Source: an archaeon (GTDB lineage Archaea; Thermoproteota; Nitrososphaeria; Nitrososphaerales; UBA183). Taken from it: 64,000 bases of DNA. The stretch covers positions 62,001-126,000 of the forward strand of contig JAKASI010000004.1 in the NCBI GenBank assembly GCA_021828185.1, in the 5' to 3' direction. Below are positions 33,034 to 48,926 of this stretch, in pieces; within the stretch, counting starts at the first letter, position 1, and each line of letters opens with the position of its first letter. Made by a program: the position numbers and the translations under genes. The notes under the pieces are model-generated. The model had not been told where the DNA came from, ran no database searches, and saw only the letters and a program-made list of their open reading frames with translations.

Positions 33034-34245
33034 GTGCAAACGTCGGGGCCAAGTCGGACGGGAAAGATCTCTGCTATCATAATCGCGGTGCTCATCGGGG
33101 TGGCTTTCTTCGCCTACTACGAAGGAACACAGCAGCCTGCAGCCAACGCGTCAGATCTCAGCAGCCTCCAGTCGAAGCTGGCGAGCCTAGAACAAGTCAA
33201 TCAGGCACTTCAGTCCCAACTTGCCTCGACGTCAAACCACACTCAGCCTTCTCTGGGGGCGCAGAGCTTGTACTCCACGGTATCCCCAAGCGTAGTCACC
33301 GTGCAGGGGTACGAACTGACGACCCAGGCTTCTTTCTTCGGCCCGGTGTCTTCGCTGTCCGAGGTGCAGGGCTCGGGGTTCGCGGTCTCGTATCAGGGGT
33401 CCTACTATATCGTCACGAACAACCACGTCGTCAGCGGGGTCTCGAACATCACCGTCACCTTCTCCGACGGCAACGCCTACCCCGCTTCGGTCAAGGGGAC
33501 CGACCCCTACAGGGACCTTGCGGTCCTGAGCGTCCAGGCCCCAGCCAGCGAATTCCACCCTCTGACGGTAGTGGGCTCCCCCCAGGCGGTCCAGGTAGGG
33601 GAGACGGTCTACGCCATCGGGAGCCCCTTCGGGCTGTCCGGGTCGCTCACTGTCGGGGTAGTCAGCCAGGTGGGGAGGACCATCACCGAGTCGAACACCC
33701 AGTTCGCGATTCCGGACATCATCCAGTTCAGCGCTGCCATCAACCCGGGGAACTCTGGGGGTCCGCTCCTGGACTCCGGGGGTGAAGTGATCGGAATCAC
33801 CACGGCTGCGGTGAGCAACTCGCAGGGGCTCGGGTTCGCCATCCCGGCGAGCACGCTGTCGAAGGAGCTGGGTCCCCTCATCACCACAGGGAACTACACC
33901 CTCCACCCCTACCTCGGCATCACCAGCGTCGATATGACATACCAGCTGGCCCAGGCAGCGGGAACCAACGTCACCTATGGCATCATGGTGCAGACAGTCG
34001 TCAGCGGAGGCCCAGCTTCGACCGCAGGCATCCGGGGCGGAACGAGGAGCGTGACCGTCGAGGGGCAGTCCTACCAGATCGGCGGTGACATCATAGTCTC
34101 CATCAACGGCGCGAAGGTAGTCAACTCCGATGCGCTGGTATCCTACCTGGAGGAGCATGCCATCGCCGGTCAGACGGTCCAGCTAGGGATAATCAGGTCG
34201 GGAACCCCCATGACGATAAATGTCACACTTGGGTCTCTGCCGTAG
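33034..34245 (+). CDS. HtrA/DegP-like membrane-anchored serine protease with PDZ
   Basis: A 403-residue protein. A signal anchor at about residues 10-28 (ISAIIIAVLIGVAFFAYY) is followed by a short coiled coil, a trypsin-like domain with His131 (NNHVVSG), Asp161 (YRDLAVL) and Ser241 (NPGNSGGPLLDSGGEVIGI), and a C-terminal PDZ (IMVQTVVSGGPASTAGIRGG, then GGDIIVSINGAKV). HtrA proteases handle misfolded extracytoplasmic proteins, which fits the many secreted proteins nearby. GTG start set by the TATA-like box at 33003. Confidence 0.92.
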   Translation: MQTSGPSRTGKISAIIIAVLIGVAFFAYYEGTQQPAANASDLSSLQSKLASLEQVNQALQSQLASTSNHTQPSLGAQSLYSTVSPSVVTVQGYELTTQASFFGPVSSLSEVQGSGFAVSYQGSYYIVTNNHVVSGVSNITVTFSDGNAYPASVKGTDPYRDLAVLSVQAPASEFHPLTVVGSPQAVQVGETVYAIGSPFGLSGSLTVGVVSQVGRTITESNTQFAIPDIIQFSAAINPGNSGGPLLDSGGEVIGITTAAVSNSQGLGFAIPASTLSKELGPLITTGNYTLHPYLGITSVDMTYQLAQAAGTNVTYGIMVQTVVSGGPASTAGIRGGTRSVTVEGQSYQIGGDIIVSINGAKVVNSDALVSYLEEHAIAGQTVQLGIIRSGTPMTINVTLGSLP

Positions 34246-35253: not shown

Positions 35254-35739
35254 ATGCGCATGGACGAGGCGACCGACCCTGCGAAGACGACCAAGGGGAC
35301 CGGAAGGCTCCTCAGGGCGGACACCCTCGTGGGGGTGGTCCTGTTCGCTATCGCCGTCGGCGGAGGGGTGCTCTTCGGAATGTCATTCACAAACCCCGGC
35401 GGGACCACCACGACCCCGACCGCACCGAAGGAGTACGAGTTCCCGACGGCCGACGCCACGTCAACCATCTCAGCGGCGGTCGGGGAGGTCTTCCTGGTCC
35501 AGCTGGAGTCCAACGCCGGGTCCACCGGGTTCGACTGGAAGGTCACCTGCAGCGGCGGGATCCAGTACATCAACTACACCTCGGTGTCGACGTCCACCGT
35601 GATGATCGGCGGGGAACTCAGGCACTACTACTTCAGAGCCCTGACGCCCGGCAACGAGTCCATAACCCTCCAGAACATGCGGTTCTTCGACCCCTCACAG
35701 ATCGCAGCGACCATTGAACTCAAAGTCACTGTGACATAG
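35254..35739 (+). CDS. membrane-anchored chagasin-like (I42) protein
   Basis: A 161-residue protein: one N-terminal transmembrane segment (TLVGVVLFAIAVGGGVLFGM), a short linker, and an Ig-like domain with chagasin features: VGEVFLVQLESNAGSTGFDW (the NxxTGxxW loop), a central GGELRHYYFRALTPGNESIT and a final strand. Chagasin-type proteins inhibit papain-like cysteine proteases; here it would face outside. It is the second such domain in the window (see the S2P tail at 22335). The start ATG at 35254 is followed closely by another ATG. Confidence 0.7.
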   Translation: MRMDEATDPAKTTKGTGRLLRADTLVGVVLFAIAVGGGVLFGMSFTNPGGTTTTPTAPKEYEFPTADATSTISAAVGEVFLVQLESNAGSTGFDWKVTCSGGIQYINYTSVSTSTVMIGGELRHYYFRALTPGNESITLQNMRFFDPSQIAATIELKVTVT

Positions 35740-37437: not shown

Positions 37438-38061
37438 GTGAGGCGCTTCCGAGGGGCGTCGGGAAGGGCTGGCAATCAGGGCGGGAGGGGCGTCACTCTG
37501 TTCGCGGCAGGCTTCTGTCTCTTCGGAATGGTCGTCGGGGGCGCCCCGACAGCGATCATGGCGCCCGCTGCAGGGGCCGTCGGGAGCCGGCAGGGTCTCA
37601 CGTTGGTCGCCGGGCCGGACGCCGAAGCGACGTGCGCGGCATACCCATGCGCCACGGTCTCTTTTCCGAGCCCGACCCAGGCGTTGGTCTCCTTCAGCGT
37701 CGGAATAGACTCCAAGGAGAGTCTGCAGCCGGCCACGTACTACACCGACCTCATCGCGATCACGAACCCCACGGAAAGCATCATTTCGATATCGTCCGTC
37801 CAGGTGTCAGGACTCGCCGATACGAGGCCGGGTGACCCGGGCGCGATAACGGTGTTCTACTGCCAGTTGCAGACCAACAATCCACAGACTGGATGCGGGA
37901 GCTCGTTCATTGATAGGTCATCGACCGGGGGTTACGCTTTCCAGGGAGCGGACCAACTTGCCCCAGGCGCCACCAGGTATCTTGAGTTCGCAGGGTTCGC
38001 CGGCACAAGCGCCCATACAGGGGACAAGATGTCGTTCACAGTGGAGGTGACCGCCGGTTGA
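37438..38061 (+). CDS. TasA/AbpA-like secreted fibre subunit (first of cluster)
   Basis: A 207-residue secreted protein with a signal segment (VTLFAAGFCLFGMVVGGAPT) and a beta-sandwich body. It shares with the genes at 38636, 39371 and 41783 the order: VAGPDAEATCAAYPCATVSF near the start, PATYYTDLIAITNPTESIIS in the middle, a VFYC motif, and ATRYLEFAGFAG late. This resembles camelysin/TasA proteins, which polymerise into extracellular fibres by strand donation, and the archaeal bundling-pilus protein AbpA. The GTG at 37438 begins the unit; its stop overlaps the next gene. Confidence 0.65.
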   Translation: MRRFRGASGRAGNQGGRGVTLFAAGFCLFGMVVGGAPTAIMAPAAGAVGSRQGLTLVAGPDAEATCAAYPCATVSFPSPTQALVSFSVGIDSKESLQPATYYTDLIAITNPTESIISISSVQVSGLADTRPGDPGAITVFYCQLQTNNPQTGCGSSFIDRSSTGGYAFQGADQLAPGATRYLEFAGFAGTSAHTGDKMSFTVEVTAG

Positions 38062-38468
38062 CGAACGCCCTCGACGAATTCAACAAGTGCAGGTGCGGTC
38101 GAGGGACCTTCCTAGTCCCCGGCACCGCCTCGCTGCGGACCTGCTCGAAGTGCGGATATCTGGCAGAGTTCTGCAGGTGCAAGAGGGTCGGGCCCCCGGC
38201 TGTGCTGAGGAGGGTGCGGTCTCCAGACCTGACGGACAGGACGAGGGCCATCGTCGGCGCCGCCGTGTTCGCTTCGATGGCGACCCTGTTCTTCATCACC
38301 TTATTCTCGTCCCCCTTTGTCGCCATAGTCGGGCTGGGGATCCCACTCGCCCTGAACGGGTCCTTCTTCGTAAAGTGGTTGACGGACAACCCCACGGTTG
38401 CTGAGGAACCGCTGGTAGTCCCCGAAGTTGCGAAGGCCGAGCGGCGGCCGTTAGTTAACACTGGTTAA
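38058..38468 (+). CDS. zinc-ribbon two-helix membrane protein
   Basis: A 136-residue protein starting at TTG 38058, overlapping the previous stop. The N-terminal half has cysteine pairs (CRCGRGTF, CSKCG, CRCKR) forming a probable zinc ribbon; the C-terminal half has two hydrophobic segments (TRAIVGAAVFASMATLFFIT and FVAIVGLGIPLALNGSFFVK). Translationally coupled to the first fibre-like subunit, so a role in its export or assembly is plausible, but only by position. Confidence 0.6.
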   Translation: MTNALDEFNKCRCGRGTFLVPGTASLRTCSKCGYLAEFCRCKRVGPPAVLRRVRSPDLTDRTRAIVGAAVFASMATLFFITLFSSPFVAIVGLGIPLALNGSFFVKWLTDNPTVAEEPLVVPEVAKAERRPLVNTG

Positions 38469-38635
38469 CCAAAACCCGGACCCTAAGGGCCTAGGCGCCG
38501 GCTCACGGCATATTGCATGGGACGGTCCGGCAAACCCTAGGCACTTGCCGAATTGTCAAAGAATCATAACAAAATACTGACTTTAGCGCTATAATGCATT
38601 TATCCACAATAATCCTCGTGCGAATTCGAAGAAAG

Positions 38636-39283
38636 ATGTCCAGAATGAAAAATGGACTAAAGGCACTATACGGTTCGAAGGCAGGGAAGATACTCCCAGT
38701 CCTCATCATAGCAGGCCTCGTAGCTTCAGCCAGCGCATCGGTCTTCGTCGTCTACTACGGCAACGCGACAGCGACAGTCAAGACTCCCGACGTCCAGCTC
38801 ATTGCCGGAGGCGACGCATCGAGCTCGTCGTCCTACAAGCCCACTGTCAGCGTCTCAAACACAAGTGACTACGCGTCGATTGGGATTACTCTATTCCCCT
38901 CTGCGTTCAAAGCAAACCCGATCGTCGCTCCGCAGCCCGGCATATACTATACCGATCTCTTGGAGGTGAAGAACACGGGAGCAACCACACATGATGTCAA
39001 TTCTATCGCAGTCACAAATGTTGTTGACTCGAGCTCATCGCTTGGGGAGATCGACGTATACTATTGCCCAACTCAGACCAACGCCCCCACTACCACGAGT
39101 TGCGAACTCTACAAGATACTTACGGCAGGCGCGTCTCCTGCGACCGGAAGTGTGACATTCCCGGTCACCCTTGGGACATCCTCTCCAACGAATACCAACT
39201 ACATAGAGATTGTAGCGCACGCAAAGGCTGGCGCCACCGTTTCATCCACAGTAGCCTTCGACCTACAGATATCGTGGGTATAG
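38636..39283 (+). CDS. TasA/AbpA-like secreted fibre subunit
   Basis: A protein of about 215 residues. Signal segment ILPVLIIAGLVASASASVFV with an Ala-x-Ala-type end, then YYGNATATVKTPDVQLIAGG, the N-terminal strand expected to be donated to a neighbour subunit. The body has YYTDLLEVKNTGATTHDVNS, IDVYYC and NYIEIVAHAKAGA. ATG 38636 follows a purine-rich GAAGAAAG; CTATAATG lies at about 38589-38596. The start is set here because upstream residues are unlike the family. The DNA around the promoter is AT-rich. Confidence 0.7.
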   Translation: MSRMKNGLKALYGSKAGKILPVLIIAGLVASASASVFVVYYGNATATVKTPDVQLIAGGDASSSSSYKPTVSVSNTSDYASIGITLFPSAFKANPIVAPQPGIYYTDLLEVKNTGATTHDVNSIAVTNVVDSSSSLGEIDVYYCPTQTNAPTTTSCELYKILTAGASPATGSVTFPVTLGTSSPTNTNYIEIVAHAKAGATVSSTVAFDLQISWV

Positions 39284-39370
39284 AGGAGACGGAAGTCCTT
39301 GGAGCCCACTTCCCAAGCGGCGTGGCCGCTACGGACCCTCAGAAGTAGGGCTCAGTCTGGCCACTCCTTT

Positions 39371-40012
39371 ATGGTTAGTTTCATAGGGAAGACATTCGGG
39401 CACATATATCACGCGAGATACGGCAAGGTGCTCGTAGTGGCTTTCCTGCTTGCCCTGGTGGCAACTGCGACAGCTACCGTATACGTGTTCTACTATACGG
39501 CGGGAACTGCGACGGTACAGGCGGCAGACGTGAAGTTCGTCGCCGGCCCGGACGTGAGCGGCTCGTGCTCGGCATACCCCTGCGCTTCGGGGAGCGTGGA
39601 TTCGACCGGAGATGTGCTAACCGCCACGATAAGCTTCTTCCCAGCCAACACTGGCGCCAGTCCGATACCTGCGACCTACTATTCCAACTTCGCCCAGCTC
39701 CACAACAGCGGTTCAGGAGCTCACTCCATCAAGAGCGTCGAAGTAATCAACGTCGGTGGGACCACCGCGGATCTCGGAGGGATTGTGGTGTACTACTGCA
39801 CATCCCAGACCGAATTCAGCGCTTCGGGTTCGCCAGTCTCTGCCTGCGTTGGCAGCTTCACGATAAGCTCCGGTTCGGGTGGGAGCCTGACGGGAACGTA
39901 TCCGCAGACGATCGCAGCCTCGGCAACTCAATACATCGAGATAGCGGCCTACGCGGCGAGCTCTGCCACCACCGGGTCGGTCACCTTCCAAATCGCGGTG
40001 CAGTGGGTGTGA
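39371..40012 (+). CDS. TasA/AbpA-like secreted fibre subunit
   Basis: A protein of about 213 residues, a close relative of the genes at 38636 and 41783. Signal segment VLVVAFLLALVATATATVYV, then FYYTAGTATVQAADVKFVAG, the cysteine-containing SGSCSAYPCASGSV, PATYYSNFAQLHNSGSGAHS, VVYYC and TQYIEIAAYAASS, ending TFQIAVQWV. The ATG at 39371 directly precedes the basic signal N-region; upstream codons are noncoding. The conserved SAYPCA cysteines probably form a disulfide outside the cell. Confidence 0.7.
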   Translation: MVSFIGKTFGHIYHARYGKVLVVAFLLALVATATATVYVFYYTAGTATVQAADVKFVAGPDVSGSCSAYPCASGSVDSTGDVLTATISFFPANTGASPIPATYYSNFAQLHNSGSGAHSIKSVEVINVGGTTADLGGIVVYYCTSQTEFSASGSPVSACVGSFTISSGSGGSLTGTYPQTIAASATQYIEIAAYAASSATTGSVTFQIAVQWV

Positions 40013-40123
40013 GAGTATGGCTATGTTCCCGACGGGGCTCGTAGCCAGTTCTACAGTCCCCCATCGAACGACAGTACGACGTTCCGTCCGGGAGGGCCCA
40101 GTGGGGTCAGATGGTGGAATTGA

Positions 40124-40681
40124 TTGAATCCGAAGGTCAGGAGAGGACTGAAGTACGCGGAATACGCAGTCGTGACGGCCCTCCTTGTCCTGTCTGTCTA
40201 CGTGGCGGCGAACTACGCATTTGGGATTCAGACGATCTATGTGGTGAGCGACAATCCGAGCAGCATGTCTCCCACGATAAACTACGGGGACCTGGCCCTC
40301 ACATTCAGGACGCCGTTCTCGACCCTGCACGTGGGGGACATAGCCTTCTTTCACGACCCGAGGGGGAACCCTGGTATCATCGTGCACAGGATAGTGTGGG
40401 AAGGGACGTGCGGGGGGGAGCTCTGCTTCCGCACAAAGGGGGACAATAACGTGACCAACCCAACCCCTGATCCGTGGAACCTGACGGCGCCGTATTATCT
40501 CTCCCAGGTGTTCCTTGTGGTCCCGTTCGTCGGTTATCTTTCGCCGGCCTTCTGGGGGTTCAGGGGGGTCGACGTCCTGCTGCCCTACGCCTTCATAGGG
40601 CTGATCCTCTTCTTCGTGTGGTACGGAAGGAAAGTCGAAGCCATGGAGGCAGAGGCTGAGAGGGTGGAGACCATTGGCTAG
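40124..40681 (+). CDS. SipW/Sec11-type signal peptidase I
   Basis: A 185-residue membrane signal peptidase of the archaeal/ER type. Ser47 lies in the box SSMSPTINYGDLALTF, His88 in GIIVHRIVW (His in place of the bacterial Lys), and an Asp in RTKGDNN near 107. Hydrophobic segments flank the catalytic part (VVTALLVLSVYVAANYAFG and LLPYAFIGLILFFVWYG). Location among TasA-like subunits parallels the SipW-TasA operon of Bacillus, so it probably processes these subunits. Start TTG 40124. Its end overlaps the next gene by 8 nt. Confidence 0.88.
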   Translation: MNPKVRRGLKYAEYAVVTALLVLSVYVAANYAFGIQTIYVVSDNPSSMSPTINYGDLALTFRTPFSTLHVGDIAFFHDPRGNPGIIVHRIVWEGTCGGELCFRTKGDNNVTNPTPDPWNLTAPYYLSQVFLVVPFVGYLSPAFWGFRGVDVLLPYAFIGLILFFVWYGRKVEAMEAEAERVETIG

Positions 40682-41780
40682 CGGATTCGCCCCTGAGTTC
40701 CTGATTCTCCTTGGTATCGACATCTTCCTAGGGGCGAGCATCCTCACCGTCCTGCTGGAGAAGCACTTCCCCGGGTCGTACCCCTACATCCTTGAAGGGG
40801 CAGCCCTGATTGGGTTCGCCGAGCTGATGTCGGGTCCCTCTTTCCTCACCTCGCTTTCGACTGAGCTTCAGTTCTGGTACAGTTTCATCTACGCCATGAT
40901 TGCGGTGCTCTCGCTCTTCGCAACCAATCTCTACCTCCTCTTCTTGCGGAGGCGGACGTTCGAAAGCGCCGTCATAGGCATCTGCGGGACAGTCCCAGCG
41001 GGTCTTGGCATCCTCTACTTCACGAGCGCCTTCGTCAACGGCCTTACAGTAAGCCTTCCGTTGGTGCCGGTGATACCGATAGAGGGGGTCTACGCAATGT
41101 TCGGGCTCAGCATCGGTTTGGTGGTCTTCTCGCTGGTCCTGTTCGGCCGCAGGACCGGGCCCGCGTCCAAGCCCGTGCACGAGACGCCAATCCCGGAGCC
41201 CTTCACGCCCGCCTCTGGAGAACACACCCAACTCATGGTGATAGGGCACCCCGAGAAGAAAGAGGAGTCGCGCCTGTCTTCGACTGCCGCCGTCCCCGGC
41301 GAAACCGAATCGCCGCAGACAGCAAAGACTGTGCCTCCTCACAAACCTGAAACCACAGAAGACTCCTCAGCTGCAGGAGGTACTCCGACAAGAGGGCGAA
41401 CGACCGCAAGCAGTGCCGCCATCTCGACCACAACTCCGCCTCCGCCCAATTCCTCTACCCCCCCCACAATGGAAGAGTGGGTCCAGAATACAGGCACGGT
41501 CCTGGTTAGGAAGGCCGAAGTCACGGGCTACAGTAGAAGGCTTCTTGACTCCATCAGGTTCTTCGAGAAGGCAGTCGACCACCCTGCCAGGCTCGACCCA
41601 ATGGCGGTGGCAGGCGTTGTGAACGGTGCCAAGACGGCGTACCTGACCCCCGCCGGGATGCTCACGATCGAAGATTCCGCGGGAAAAACCATCTCCGTGA
41701 GCCTATTGGATATCTCTACGGACGAAGCGCTTCGAGTCATGAGAGAAGCCATGAAGGGACTCAAAGAGGCCGAAGACTAG
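40674..41780 (+). CDS. polytopic membrane protein with Thr/Pro linker and C-terminal domain
   Basis: A 368-residue protein from TTG 40674. About five hydrophobic segments fill residues 1-165 (FLILLGIDIFLGASILTVLL, FIYAMIAVLSLFATNLYLLF and others). A low-complexity Thr/Pro/Ser stretch follows (about 170-260), then a soluble domain of about 100 residues (NTGTVLVRKAEVTGYSRRLL, then GAKTAYLTPAGMLTIEDSAG). The linker plus domain suggests a platform or anchor. Overlap with the signal peptidase gene and position between fibre subunits suggest a secretion or assembly role; no family is recognised. Confidence 0.65.
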   Translation: MASGFAPEFLILLGIDIFLGASILTVLLEKHFPGSYPYILEGAALIGFAELMSGPSFLTSLSTELQFWYSFIYAMIAVLSLFATNLYLLFLRRRTFESAVIGICGTVPAGLGILYFTSAFVNGLTVSLPLVPVIPIEGVYAMFGLSIGLVVFSLVLFGRRTGPASKPVHETPIPEPFTPASGEHTQLMVIGHPEKKEESRLSSTAAVPGETESPQTAKTVPPHKPETTEDSSAAGGTPTRGRTTASSAAISTTTPPPPNSSTPPTMEEWVQNTGTVLVRKAEVTGYSRRLLDSIRFFEKAVDHPARLDPMAVAGVVNGAKTAYLTPAGMLTIEDSAGKTISVSLLDISTDEALRVMREAMKGLKEAED

Positions 41781-41782
41781 CA

Positions 41783-42430
41783 ATGATTGCCAAAGCGAAG
41801 AGCTCGTTCCCCGGACGCTCGGCCAAGACCATCTTGGTGCTCCTATTCCTCGCATCGGCAATTGCCGCCAGTGCGACCGTGTACACCTTCTTCTACACCA
41901 ATGCGACCGGGACGGTGAGGGCTCCCGACGTCACCCTCGCTGCAGGAACCGACAACAGCGGGACCTGCTCAGCTTACCCCTGCGCGACCGTGTCGATATC
42001 GGGCACATCAGACACTGCTACCGTGACGCTCAGCCTCTTCAAGGCGGATGCAGCCTTCTCCCCGCCCCCCTCTACATACTACACCAACCTTGTCCAGATC
42101 AAGGACGCCAACAACGCTCACAGCATCCAAAGCATTTCGATTACAAACGTTGCATGCTCCAACGCTGGGGGCTGCTCAGTTGACCTGGGGTCAGTCACGG
42201 TCTACTACTGCACCGCGCAGTGCACCTTCGACTCTAACGGCGGCGTGAGCGGAGGGACACAGGTCGGGCACTACACCTTCACATCTGCCGCGAGCGGCTC
42301 CATAGGCGGCACATTCCCGGTGAGCATAGCGGCCTCTGCGACCCAGTACGTCGAAGTGGTGGCTTACGCCGGGAGCGGCGCCACGGCGGGGGACACTGTC
42401 AGCTTCAAGGTGGCCATGCAATGGGTCTAG
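41783..42430 (+). CDS. TasA/AbpA-like secreted fibre subunit
   Basis: A 215-residue protein. Signal segment TILVLLFLASAIAASATVYT, then FFYTNATGTVRAPDVTLAAG, NSGTCSAYPCATVSI, STYYTNLVQIKDANNAHSIQ, VTVYYC, and TQYVEVVAYAGSGATAGD, ending FKVAMQWV. It is the clearest member of the family in the window, 3 nt after the polytopic protein gene. The overlapping ATG of the next gene (10-bp overlap) indicates one operon. Confidence 0.75.
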   Translation: MIAKAKSSFPGRSAKTILVLLFLASAIAASATVYTFFYTNATGTVRAPDVTLAAGTDNSGTCSAYPCATVSISGTSDTATVTLSLFKADAAFSPPPSTYYTNLVQIKDANNAHSIQSISITNVACSNAGGCSVDLGSVTVYYCTAQCTFDSNGGVSGGTQVGHYTFTSAASGSIGGTFPVSIAASATQYVEVVAYAGSGATAGDTVSFKVAMQWV

Positions 42431-43476
42431 ATCGTACGAAGACGAGGCATAGGGGTGCCTCCCTGACTGCGGTCGTGTTCATCCTGGCAGTCTTGATGGC
42501 TGCTTCTGTCCCAGCCGCTGCCTCTGTCTACGACTACGTCTACTCGAGCAACACAGGCACAGTAAGGGCTCCGACGGTGACCCTCGGAACTGGCACGGCT
42601 GGGACCTCTTCGATTTCGTCGGTCGCGCCCGACGCGGCTACGGTAGCAGTCACGGCGGGTTTGGTCTTCTACGAGAGTGCCAACGCAGACACTTCTTGCA
42701 CCTCCCCTTCGCCCGACACTGCGCTCACCGCTCCGGGGACTTCCGGGTCGATTACATTCAACAAGGGAACCACCGCTTGCCTCTGGTCGGCCCAACTCAC
42801 GGCAGGCTCGACGCTTTATGCATTGAACTGGGTGACTGATTTCTGGCTTTCTGCAGACGCTGCAAAATTCGGGATAAACGTCGTTGTGTATGTCACCGAT
42901 TCGGCAGGGACCCATCAGGGGAGCGCAATATTCAGCGGCACAACTTCGGCCATTGCCACTAAGAACGTGATGCAGGAGCTCAGGGACACATTCGTTGGCG
43001 TTGCGGCAACGGTCCCGGCCAACGGGTACATCGAGCTGATTCTGACTCCTCCTTCGGCGGGTGGGACCCCCAAGTCTTGGACCATCTACTGGGGCGCCGG
43101 TCAGCTCACCAACTTCGCCACTCCCAGCAACTACAACTACGTCCTCGCCATCACTAACGGCGCAGCCGCAACCTGGAGCGTCAGCCTGGGAGTCGCTTCG
43201 TCCTCGCTCCTGACGAGGCTCTCGAACTTCACGATATCCCTTGCGACAACTCCAGTGAACAAGCAGGTCATCATAGCAGGCGGTTCTGTCACGCAGAGCG
43301 GCGGCACAGCCGTCACCCTGGGGGCGACGGGTACCCTGAACATCGCGGTCGGAGGGGTCGGGAACGCGATTCCTACAGGCTCCAACACACCATCGGTCGT
43401 GACCGTCTCACTGAAGGTGCTGTCAAGTTCCAGCACGGTCTTTGCCCAGTACACCATCTTGTTCAGTGTGTACTAG
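42421..43476 (+). CDS. larger secreted protein of the fibre cluster
   Basis: A 351-residue secreted protein with the same N-terminal plan as the fibre subunits: signal segment TAVVFILAVLMAASVPAAAS, then VYDYVYSSNTGTVRAPTVTL. The body is larger and Ser/Thr/Gly-rich, with beta-type regions (TIYWGAGQLTNFATPSNYNY) and no C-terminal anchor. Being last in the operon and longer, it could be a minor, tip or base subunit, analogous to TapA in Bacillus; this is inference from position and size. ATG 42421 overlaps the previous gene. Confidence 0.65.
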   Translation: MGLDRTKTRHRGASLTAVVFILAVLMAASVPAAASVYDYVYSSNTGTVRAPTVTLGTGTAGTSSISSVAPDAATVAVTAGLVFYESANADTSCTSPSPDTALTAPGTSGSITFNKGTTACLWSAQLTAGSTLYALNWVTDFWLSADAAKFGINVVVYVTDSAGTHQGSAIFSGTTSAIATKNVMQELRDTFVGVAATVPANGYIELILTPPSAGGTPKSWTIYWGAGQLTNFATPSNYNYVLAITNGAAATWSVSLGVASSSLLTRLSNFTISLATTPVNKQVIIAGGSVTQSGGTAVTLGATGTLNIAVGGVGNAIPTGSNTPSVVTVSLKVLSSSSTVFAQYTILFSVY

Positions 43477-43521: not shown

Positions 43522-44320
43522 TTGAGGAACAACAAGGACGTCCTGACGCTGCAGAGGGAAGAAGAAGCCAAGCTTTTTCTCGTCGCACTCCAGCTGAAGA
43601 ACCAGGTCGGGGCAGTAGCAGACGTCACCGGGCGCCTCGAGGAGGGCAGGTTCAACCTGCTGTCGGCCTTCATGTCTACCCCCGACCCGGACGGATTCGG
43701 GAACTTCAGTTTCTTCGCCGAGTCCGCGAAGAGGGGAGTGATGCCGGCAGACCTTAGGAGCGTCCTAGAAAAGTCCAAGTTCGTCGCCGAGATAAGAATC
43801 AAGCAAAGCCCACAAAGGCCTTCTCGTCGACTCTCTGAACTTCCCGGTGAGCTGGAACACCGGCGACAGGGTCATCATGCTCAGGACAGAGTTTTTCACA
43901 GCCATGGAAGACGGAATCCGTAGGCTCTTCGAGACCGGAGCCGACGTCGTCCTCTACGAGATGGGATACCACCACGGGGAACCGACCTGGAAGAACCTTC
44001 TGAGATCGTACGAGGTGAAGACGCTAGATGACCTCCAAGAAGTCCTTGCAATCTACACCGCCAACGGATGGGGGGTGCCCGAGGCGGTGTCGTTGGATCT
44101 TGCAGCCCGGACTGCGGAAGTGAAGTTCACCGAGAACTTCGAATGCACCCTCAAGGAGGGTCAGACGAGCGCAGGGTCCAACTTCGTCCGTGGCCACCTG
44201 AGCGGACTGTTCGAGATTGTCCTGGGGTCGAAGGTAGAGGTGAGCGAGACAAACTGCGTCGCGAAAGGGGATTGGACCTGCACCTTCAGAGTAGCCTCCC
44301 GGTCGAAGCCTCCGTTCTAG
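43522..44320 (+). pseudogene. ACT-like plus V4R sensor protein split by a frameshift
   Basis: Two frames form one protein. The first (TTG 43522; an upstream GTG at 43477 is less likely) gives an ACT-like domain (FLVALQLKNQVGAVADVTGR) up to VAEIRIK. From about 43805 a second frame continues KAHKGLLVDSLNFPVSWNTG and a V4R domain (FFTAMEDGIRRLFETGADVV, then ENFECTLKEG and AKGDWTCTFRV). V4R domains bind hydrophobic or small ligands and often control transcription. The break is one nucleotide, near atcaagcaaagccc. If it is an assembly error, the gene is an intact sensor. Confidence 0.65.
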
Positions 44321-44475: not shown

Positions 44476-45825
44476 ATGGCTAGCTTCCTTCAGCCGGTGG
44501 CCGAGCCTCTCGTCTACCTGGCAGCCTTGGCCATCACTCTCGCCTCTGGGACCCTGGTCTACAGGCAGCGGCTGACCGCCTACCATGTCGTGAGGAGCTT
44601 TGTACTTGGGGTCTACGTCCTGATCACCTTCATGATGCTCCTCGACCTGTACCGGGTCACCCTCGGCACAGTAGGTTTCATCCCGGCTTTCGCTGGGGTC
44701 AGCATCGGCCTCGGCCTCCTGCAGTGCGTGTTGCTGCTGGCAGCAGCGCAGGTCGTGTATCTCAGTCCGACGGCGACCTACCGGGACTTCGGGTCGGTGC
44801 TGGCAAAGCGTCGGGGGCACGCGGCCCTGCTGGTCGCCTTCATCGCCCTAGCGGCCTTCGCGGAAATCTATGCCGCCTTCGTCTCGCCGGTATCGTCGGG
44901 GCTCGTCACGGACTTCGCCGGGAACAAGGTCCCTTCGATGCGCGTCGGGGCAGACCTCATCCCCCTGGTGATCGGGCTCTTCTCCTTCTTCCTGGTCTAT
45001 CCCACCGCCCTCATGCTCCTCGGTTCATCTAAGGTCAAGGAAAGCCGGCTGAGGTCGAGTATTGTCGGGCTGGCTCTGGGGTGGGCTACGGTGTCCGCCA
45101 TCTACGTCTTTGCCGAGGTATATGCCTGGGACCTGAAGGTCGACGCCACAGGTCTCATGTATCTGGCAAACGCTGTGATCTTCTATGTGGTGATAAGGAA
45201 CTTCAGGCGTTCGGCATCCCTGGCTGGCTTTGTCGAGCATGGGGTCCCGGTGCCAACCCGAGGGACCGCTCCAAACGAGAGCATGTCGCCCCTCACCGGC
45301 GCGCTCGCAGGGAAGAAGCTCTTGTATGAGGTGGACCCATCCCTCTCCTACGACCGTAGCCTCCGTCAGACCCTCGAGGAGCTCGCCTGGGCAGGGCACG
45401 CAGTCTTCGTCTTCACCCCGAAGTCGAGCCCGCTTCACAACACGCTCTCGGGTGGGACCGGTCTGAAGTTCTTCCTGTCTTCCCTCGGGATCTCCTACGT
45501 GAAGGTCTCGGAGAAGACCGGCGAGGTCCTTATCCCCCAGTCTGACACCGCGGTGATCCTCGACGTCGCCGACAAGACTCTCGGTTCGAGGGGAGGGAAG
45601 GTGGTGTTTGTCTTCGACAGCGTCACAGACATGCTGCTGTCCGCCGGCCTGGAGAAGACCTACAAGTTCCTCAAGCAGTTCCTTGAGCTCCTCCACGAGC
45701 CGAGGTCGACCGGGTTCTTCGTCTTCATCAAGGTCGCCCATGGAGACAGGGAGGTGAACCTGCTAAGGGGGATCTTTCCAAACATATACCTCGAAGACAA
45801 GGAAGGGTCGCGCATCATCAAGTGA
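44476..45825 (+). CDS. 7TM protein with DUF835-like C-terminal domain
   Basis: A 449-residue protein: about seven hydrophobic segments in residues 5-250, then a soluble RecA-like domain without an ATP loop (VDPSLSYDRSLRQTLEELAW, VFVFTPKSSPLHNTLSGG, AVILDVADKTL, KVVFVFDSVTDMLLSAGLEK, TYKFLKQFLELL). The C-terminal part matches DUF835-type archaeal domains, related to KaiC folds. The same architecture occurs at 61536 and, broken, at 54249. The membrane half is probably a sensor; partner KaiC-like ATPases lie at 55628 and 59473. Confidence 0.7.
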   Translation: MASFLQPVAEPLVYLAALAITLASGTLVYRQRLTAYHVVRSFVLGVYVLITFMMLLDLYRVTLGTVGFIPAFAGVSIGLGLLQCVLLLAAAQVVYLSPTATYRDFGSVLAKRRGHAALLVAFIALAAFAEIYAAFVSPVSSGLVTDFAGNKVPSMRVGADLIPLVIGLFSFFLVYPTALMLLGSSKVKESRLRSSIVGLALGWATVSAIYVFAEVYAWDLKVDATGLMYLANAVIFYVVIRNFRRSASLAGFVEHGVPVPTRGTAPNESMSPLTGALAGKKLLYEVDPSLSYDRSLRQTLEELAWAGHAVFVFTPKSSPLHNTLSGGTGLKFFLSSLGISYVKVSEKTGEVLIPQSDTAVILDVADKTLGSRGGKVVFVFDSVTDMLLSAGLEKTYKFLKQFLELLHEPRSTGFFVFIKVAHGDREVNLLRGIFPNIYLEDKEGSRIIK

Positions 45826-46943: not shown

Positions 46944-48926
46944 CTAGTGGCCCAGGAGGGACCGCACCGCGACCGGGAGGAACGCCTTGTCTGGGAAGTA
47001 GATCAAGAAGAAGACGAACACCATGGCGACGTAGACGTACAACAGCCACTTCGGGAACCAGCTCCTCGAGGTCCAGTAGGCCGCTCCTAGGGCGACCGCC
47101 GGGATCCCGGGGACAAAGTAGAACGGGTAAGTGACCCTCTCGGCGAGCAGTAGGAACAGGTAGGGGACGTAGGACCAGAGGAACAGAATCAGGGCCAGCC
47201 CGGCGAACCTGACGTCCCCCGGCATCCCCTGCGGCTCAGCGGGCGTTGCGGCCTGCTGCGCGGCCGGTTCCGATCCCTGAGCCTCTGGCACCCCCTTCCC
47301 CCTCTTCAGCCACCTGTATAGGGCGTACGCCGCCAGGGGGACCCAGATGTATACGGTCCAGGTCTCGAGGAAGTTCGTCACCCCATAGTACGCTATCTCC
47401 TGGTAGCTCCCACCCTGGCAGACCCCGTTCACCGACTCAGGGCAGACGGTGACCGCGAAGTAGGTTATGGGGCTGTAGTAGGTCAGCCAGTCGGTGGGGA
47501 GGATAGGCGGCCCGCCGGGGTCGTTGGGGTACTTGCACCAGTACCCCACGCTGTGGGGCCCGCCCTGGCATTCGAGGTAGTGGGCAGTGAGCCCCGACCC
47601 ATAGCAGAGGATGTATCCGACCTGCTGCACGAAGGTGTTCCCGTTCATGGCGCAGTAGGTCGTCCCTGCCGCCGATGGCGATACCAGCGCGTAGTCGTAG
47701 GCCTCCAGCCCCACCGAGAAGACCAGCACGACGACGATACTGACCTTCGCTACGGTCTTCATCCTCTCCCTGTAGTTCCCTCCCTCAAAGAAGAACACAT
47801 AGGTGGCGAACGCCAGGGCGAAGAACAGCGCTGTCTCCTTTGCCAGGGCCGAGACCCCTATTAGCACCCCGGCGAGGACGTGCCTGTCGAGCTTCCATAT
47901 CCGGAGGTTGGCGAAGTACACGAAGAAGGCCGCTAGCCCGAAGAACACCTCGGGGATGTCTAGGAGCCCTCCGCTCGACTGGGAGAAGAACATCACGTCG
48001 AGGGCGAGGAACGTCGCGGACAGGTATGCGACCTTCTTGTCCCCTGACACCTTCCACGCAATTCCGAAGAGGAGCGGTATGCTGAACGTACCGAGCAGCG
48101 CGGGCATCACCCTCCACCCGGCCGCGTCGTACTCTCCAAAGGCAGCCATCCCGGCAGCCAGGAGCGCAGGGACCAGGGGAGGATGCTCGAGGTGGCAGTC
48201 GGAGGGGGCGCCGTTCCCGGTCGAGCAGTGCTGGCCTGCGAGGATCCCCATCCCCTCCGGGACGTAGAAGACTTCGTCCATGATGCAACCGTAGTCCCTC
48301 TTGCCCGTATCGTAGCAGGTGAGATACTGGTAGGAGATGGTCACCTCCGTGGTGTTCGAGGTCGGGAGACGCCAGACCCCGGTCGCGGACGTCCCGGGCT
48401 CGAGCGGGGATGAGTGCGAGGGGGGCGAGGTGCTCCACCCCCCCGGAAGGGGTACTCCCCCTGCCGAGACGTCCGCCTGGGCAATCGCGTTCCCCCCGCT
48501 GACTTCGAGGTTCAGGGACAGGTTGGCCCCCGCCGCCGAGGAGCCAACAGTAATCTGGTTGTCGTTGAAGCTCGACCCCACCTGGCCCGTGAGGATCCCG
48601 TGGGCCGTCGCCGCCGGATCATTGATGATGAAGGCGTGCGCGAGGAGGGTCGCAAGAGTGATGGCGACAATGAATGCAACAGCCCGCCTGTGGCCGGGAA
48701 AGGCGAGCCATGCGTGGGCCACCCCCGTCAATAGCGATGCGGCAGCAAGAACGCCGAGCGCGGCCCCGAGGGCATCTGCTGGGGCGACCAGGGCGCCATC
48801 GGAAGACAGGGTGTGGACGTACATCACGGCCAGGAAGGCGGCAAGGTCTGTGAACGAGAGTGCGACGAGGACCCTCAGCGGCCTCCGCAGCGAGTTGTTC
48901 GCAGGGCCTGCACCCCCAACTTGCAT
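46944..48926 (-). CDS. GT-C type membrane glycosyltransferase (PMT/ArnT-like)
   Basis: A 660-residue polytopic protein. The luminal loop motif IMDEVFYVPEGMG, then LEHPPLVPALLAAGMAAFGE, is characteristic of GT39/ArnT-type transferases using a polyprenyl-phosphate sugar. About 12 hydrophobic segments surround a large extracytoplasmic insert early on (residues about 120-200). It probably glycosylates surface proteins, consistent with the Ser/Thr-rich stalk protein at 9699. TTTTTTAGC is centred about 26 nt before the ATG at 48926, suggesting a leaderless start. Confidence 0.85.
   Translation of the reverse strand: MQVGGAGPANNSLRRPLRVLVALSFTDLAAFLAVMYVHTLSSDGALVAPADALGAALGVLAAASLLTGVAHAWLAFPGHRRAVAFIVAITLATLLAHAFIINDPAATAHGILTGQVGSSFNDNQITVGSSAAGANLSLNLEVSGGNAIAQADVSAGGVPLPGGWSTSPPSHSSPLEPGTSATGVWRLPTSNTTEVTISYQYLTCYDTGKRDYGCIMDEVFYVPEGMGILAGQHCSTGNGAPSDCHLEHPPLVPALLAAGMAAFGEYDAAGWRVMPALLGTFSIPLLFGIAWKVSGDKKVAYLSATFLALDVMFFSQSSGGLLDIPEVFFGLAAFFVYFANLRIWKLDRHVLAGVLIGVSALAKETALFFALAFATYVFFFEGGNYRERMKTVAKVSIVVVLVFSVGLEAYDYALVSPSAAGTTYCAMNGNTFVQQVGYILCYGSGLTAHYLECQGGPHSVGYWCKYPNDPGGPPILPTDWLTYYSPITYFAVTVCPESVNGVCQGGSYQEIAYYGVTNFLETWTVYIWVPLAAYALYRWLKRGKGVPEAQGSEPAAQQAATPAEPQGMPGDVRFAGLALILFLWSYVPYLFLLLAERVTYPFYFVPGIPAVALGAAYWTSRSWFPKWLLYVYVAMVFVFFLIYFPDKAFLPVAVRSLLGH

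Follow-up and report, generated by a model that had tools for sequence, protein, structure and literature searches.

The window analysed here, a 64,000-nucleotide stretch of the Nitrososphaerales contig JAKASI010000004.1 (positions 62,001 to 126,000), carries at 37438–43476 a cluster of eight forward-strand genes that, on its predicted fold, is well supported as a thread/AbpA-like fibre cluster. Four of the genes encode related secreted proteins, S1 to S4, and a fifth encodes a larger protein, S5; the others encode a signal peptidase (SP), a polytopic membrane protein (PM) and a small membrane protein (ZnR). Taken as a whole, with the steps of assembly included, it is in our judgement probable that these genes make an extracellular fibre of the AbpA/thread class, in an archaeon whose placement in an AmoA-lacking lineage of the Nitrososphaerota is judged from its relatives. 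The predicted fold, together with a peptidase tree, supports an archaeal fibre of the AbpA type that has a signal peptidase to itself. Gene layout, paralogy, the folds predicted for S4 and S5 and the grouping of the cluster peptidases were computed, while cleavage, strand donation, the order of the subunits, adhesion and the roles of PM and ZnR are what we infer.

Structure prediction of a subunit, proposed in the preliminary description of this DNA, was carried out on S4 (41783–42430), whose single-chain model adopts the thread/AbpA fold; in the predicted folds of single chains, the window has the subunit fold of the AbpA/thread class. Sequence kinship to the fibres in the PDB was not detected, as 0 sequences were matched at E ≤ 10 by either a single query or a 105-row profile. 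The 50 structure matches listed for S4 include neither a TasA entry nor a type IV pilin, and its signal segment ends, by eye, in A-x-A.

The fibre subunit S4 and its paralogues S2 (38636–39283) and S3 (39371–40012) form one family by alignment with S1 (37438–38061), a secreted pilin-like protein with a GTG start. All six pairs gave z scores of 13 to 45 over shuffles (200 per pair, first 30 residues omitted), and S4 shares 47% identity with S3 and 40% with S2. With z scores of 13.3 against S2, 23.4 against S3 and 23.3 against S4, S1 is, as far as alignment can tell, a more distant paralogue of the other three. The preliminary description had spoken of five related secreted proteins; four of them are indeed related, but S5 is no plain fifth copy. 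The motifs described as common to all five hold only in part, as S2 lacks the SAYPCA cysteines, S1 the TATVxxPDV strand, and S5 the SAYPCA, YYTDL and VYYC motifs (by eye). Comparison of 105 family members (S4 and 104 of its 120 listed relatives) with Pfam and NCBIfam gave weak, scattered matches, for Pfam among the best 25 of 38 families. A reading as viral coat protein, through the STIV penton domain, was rejected: S4 matched it at E 0.034 with 14.9 bits against a cut-off of 27, and only 1 of the 105 members matched.

Behind the presumed A-x-A site, which was placed by eye, the consensus of the 105 aligned proteins mostly reads T/S-V-Y/F-x-F/Y-Y/F-Y. Residues 31–43 contain three aromatics in 53 rows, four in 51 and five in one, so that all 105 rows have three to five. 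The first residue past the presumed site, position 32, is T in 71, S in 24 and A in 9 of the 105, and an N-glycosylation sequon falls within residues 36–46 in 47/105. An extended aromatic strand just behind a class I signal peptide, a mark of the AbpA/thread class, is therefore present if the site is read correctly by eye. In the window, the presumed mature N-terminus and aromatic strand lie at 38738–38779 in S2 (residues 35–48), at 39476–39517 in S3 (residues 36–49), at 41876–41917 in S4 (residues 32–45), where it is the candidate donor strand, and at 42523–42564 in S5 (residues 35–48), again with cleavage sites placed by eye. The TATVxxPDV strand had earlier been put forward as the donor; in the 105-protein alignment, the aromatic stretch directly before it is the likelier one. 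According to PMC9715654, a YYY motif within the first residues past the cleavage site is conserved among thread homologues.

In the mechanism that we propose, S2, S3 and S4 would be exported by Sec, and the cluster signal peptidase would cleave behind A-x-A to free the aromatic-rich N-terminal strand, which would fill the β sandwich of the following subunit, linking the subunits into a chain. The alternative that the subunits are single, non-polymerising jelly-roll surface proteins, such as tethered adhesins, S-layer associates or binding proteins, appears rather improbable.

According to its model, S5 (42421–43476) is a two-domain, adhesin-like subunit, in which an AbpA-like domain carries an inserted, sugar-module-like jelly roll (residues 79–237, 42655–43131). 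Its alignment z scores are 0.9 against S1, 2.5 against S2 and 1.2 against S3, and only S4 stands out, at 5.2. The match to the family profile covers just 51 N-terminal columns (hhalign probability 96, E 2e-9), corresponding to the signal segment and the two strands behind it, of which the first is the aromatic one; the alignment set is without P0134, which covers 23% of S5. A possible extra strand at residues 341–350 lies past the end of the AbpA match (337), and we do not claim that it fills the protein's own groove. With the strand of S2–S4, a similar domain and the jelly roll, S5 would probably be a minor, adhesive component located at one end of the fibre, and may form its sticky end.

S1, a domain without the strand, would fit the opposite end and is a candidate end subunit. 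The aromatic strand was not found in the four S1 sequences (those of the window, L001, L004 and L037). Profile matches to S1 begin at position 48 in G001 and 50 in G004, but at 16 in G005, and because these starts differ, it is from the reading of the four sequences that the strand is taken to be lost. The S1-like proteins of L036, L038 and L039 are less closely related, with some aromatics close to their N-termini. Those at L038:9428-10150 and L039:9039-9695 are lone secreted proteins of G002, located outside the cluster of that genome.

The eight frames named in the preliminary description are all open at their coordinates. The starts of S2 and S3, 38636 and 39371, are ATGs within longer frames that begin at 38594 and 39299, and are plausible because the signal segment then falls near the start. 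Gene spacing suggests four units, S1-ZnR, S2, S3 and SP-PM-S4-S5: S1 shares 4 bases with ZnR, gaps of 167, 87 and 111 bases precede S2, S3 and SP, respectively, and the spacings within the last run are -8, 2 and -10.

This layout bears on the position of S1 and S5 in the fibre. A complete strand-donated fibre with two specialised ends, in which S1 accepts only and S5 is a donating adhesin with exchangeable inserted modules, is a tentative proposal that we hold to be possible rather than likely. If S5 were at the far tip, the subunit tails would point toward the cell and the fibre would grow from its base, which is hypothesis 2 left open in the available part of PMC9715654. We give an even chance to a fibre in which S1 and S5 are not the ends, S5 being in-line or side-bound, or S2 to S5 forming separate fibres while S1 and ZnR belong elsewhere. 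The overlapping S1 and ZnR genes, which travel together in 4/4 loci and apart from the SP-PM-S4-S5 unit, favor such an arrangement, as do S2 and S3, each standing alone between gaps. On the other hand, S1 and S2–S4 are one family, S5 has their strand and an AbpA-like domain, and S5 is located directly behind a subunit in the window and together with the peptidase in eight clusters of relatives.

SP (40124–40681), which had been described as a SipW-like signal peptidase, is a real signal peptidase I of the archaeal type, scoring 63.3 bits with TIGR02228 against a cut-off of 51.85, but it reaches only 33.5 of the 190 required by the SipW model NF046067. Since the general archaeal type is expected in an archaeon, the label "SipW-like" adds little. 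In a tree of 43 rows, a branch supported at 100/99 divides the nine cluster peptidases, that of the window included, from the further copies in the same eight genomes and from the enzymes of genomes lacking the cluster. Because the cluster peptidases group together, the tree supports, at the level of sequence, their co-inheritance with the substrates. The tree, whose root is for drawing only and in which some non-cluster rows have long branches, is without L051, L082 and L088, which have no frame with S-M-x-P in place, and without L084, which is identical to L079. As L051 is one of the two copies of G406, this genome has no bearing on the grouping.

An extra peptidase copy was considered as a mark of the carriers and rejected: at least two TIGR02228 matches occur in 9/9 carriers, but two or three also occur in 6/20 non-carriers. 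G414 has one such match, and the two matches of the non-carrier G252 are pieces of one gene. Carriers are told from non-carriers by the peptidase tree only, and not by copy number.

A true bacterial-type TasA-SipW system, gained from bacteria, would have the same layout, with secreted β-sandwich proteins accompanied by a peptidase. However, membership in the TasA/camelysin family, proposed in the preliminary description, was not borne out by sequence, as none of the five subunits matches PF12389 at E ≤ 1. This Pfam family was found in 0/9 carrier genomes, with a positive control in B. subtilis, and is absent among the best 25 of the 38 Pfam families for the 105 members. Moreover, the peptidase scores above the cut-off of the archaeal model but below that of SipW, and the named sources of the family are archaea, bar one "bacterium". 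We therefore regard a bacterial origin of this kind as very improbable. No chaperone/usher Pfam family was matched in the ten proteins of the general Pfam scan, in which the genomes were not searched.

PM (40674–41780) and ZnR (38058–38468), which the preliminary description had presented as membrane partners of no known family, are real frames with no Pfam match over the cut-off. PM has a variable Thr/Pro-rich linker and a C-terminal domain. In the alignment of PM with 22 of 27 other proteins (23 rows, five short ones omitted), the membrane part is highly conserved and the C-terminal domain is missing in some; the match ends ahead of this domain in G004, G174 and G101, and the membrane part was not found in G002, G003, G031 and G406. 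PM adjoins the peptidase in 6/9 clusters, window included. The cytosolic-looking proteins at L095:1453-2121, L096:1339-1884 and L097:1399-2043 have the C-terminal domain of PM, and the genes in L095 and L096 adjoin a vWA-like protein (by eye), from which no function is gained for PM. ZnR has six cysteines, is zinc-ribbon-like by eye, and directly follows S1 in 4/4 loci with a true S1 (the window, L001, L004 and L037); no ZnR turned up next to the three distant S1-like genes (L036, L038 and L039). PM and ZnR may be a platform, anchor or sensor; in the proposed mechanism they would likely be the membrane anchor or assembly platform, PM being the candidate for this role.

A protein search with a three-subunit profile, which scored only the 7,995 candidates with the most shared words, gave 142 proteins at E ≤ 0.01, and none of the 120 listed relatives has a Pfam domain. 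Among the source names given for them are those of Thaumarchaeota, Nitrososphaerales and Nitrososphaerota archaea. A species-genome scan gave five loci, four archaeal by title and one "bacterium". Whole-genome searches found the family in 8/400 genomes of the class (seven strong, one partial at E 7e-4) and in 9/201 genomes of the order (eight strong, one partial at E 8e-14). AmoA was found neither in the nine strong carriers nor in the partial carrier G414, and is present in 3/6 other genomes tested. Sixteen loci were compared gene by gene, of which L003 and L040 are the same stretch. Subunit, S5 and peptidase occur together in eight distinct loci (L001–L005 and L033–L035). In L037, S1, ZnR and a subunit are followed by the contig end, L032 and L042 (G406) have a subunit on a short contig without S5 or peptidase, L036, L038 and L039 have a lone family member, and L041 has a weak peptidase match only.

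Downstream of the cluster lie a V4R-domain protein (43847–44320, forward strand) and a protein with several membrane segments and a DUF7090/DUF7504 part (44476–45825, forward strand), relatives of the latter being located near the cluster in L001, L004, L005 and L035; both look regulatory. In a related cluster, a KaiC/GvpD-like ATPase (L001:4003-4707) is located upstream of S1. A PMT-family protein mannosyltransferase (46944–48926, reverse strand), about 3.5 kb downstream, has relatives close to the L001 and L037 clusters and might add sugars to the Ser/Thr-rich subunits. On the other side, a protease inhibitor of the chagasin type, hydrophobic in its N-terminal segment (35254–35739, forward strand), lies near an HtrA-like protease with PDZ (33034–34245, forward strand).

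The archaeal strand-donated fibres met in our search of the open PMC literature were those of Sulfolobus and Pyrobaculum only; the matches listed include no account of such a cluster in Nitrososphaerota and no tip adhesin of an archaeal strand-donated fibre. In the available part of PMC9715654, the polarity of the thread is stated to be unknown, with no chaperone or usher assignable. The present cluster sets candidate end, adhesive and membrane parts and a co-grouping peptidase beside the subunits. If our explanation is true, the fold extends to Nitrososphaerota, and polarity and capping become testable with recombinant proteins.

The TapA-SipW-TasA system of Bacillus subtilis resembles the cluster in its secreted β-sandwich subunits, in-cluster signal peptidase and minor secreted partners, and TasA fibres assemble by donor strands according to the available part of PMC9674648; it differs in that the window subunits have no camelysin Pfam match and the peptidase is not SipW by model. 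TasA/CalY/CapP of Bacillus cereus is alike by description only, with two structural subunits and a modulating partner (PMC13082335, in its available part). TasA homologues are said to occur in archaea in the accessible text of PMC10151520, and because it credits the AbpA paper with them, genes related to the window family may figure there. Neither AbpA of Pyrobaculum calidifontis (PDB 7ueg) nor the thread subunit Saci_0406 of Sulfolobus acidocaldarius (PDB 7pnb) matches the window subunits in sequence. In the thread, Asp24 is proposed for an isopeptide bond, whereas the window family has T, S or A at the presumed first mature residue, so that, given the presumed cleavage site, the mature N-terminal Asp of the Sulfolobus threads is absent. 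The available part of the thread description mentions no peptidase beside the thread gene. Unlike the thread, the window cluster brings together several subunits, a signal peptidase and the insert-bearing S5, and what is new relative to known fibres is the apparently co-inherited peptidase, the predicted two-domain S5 and the strandless S1.
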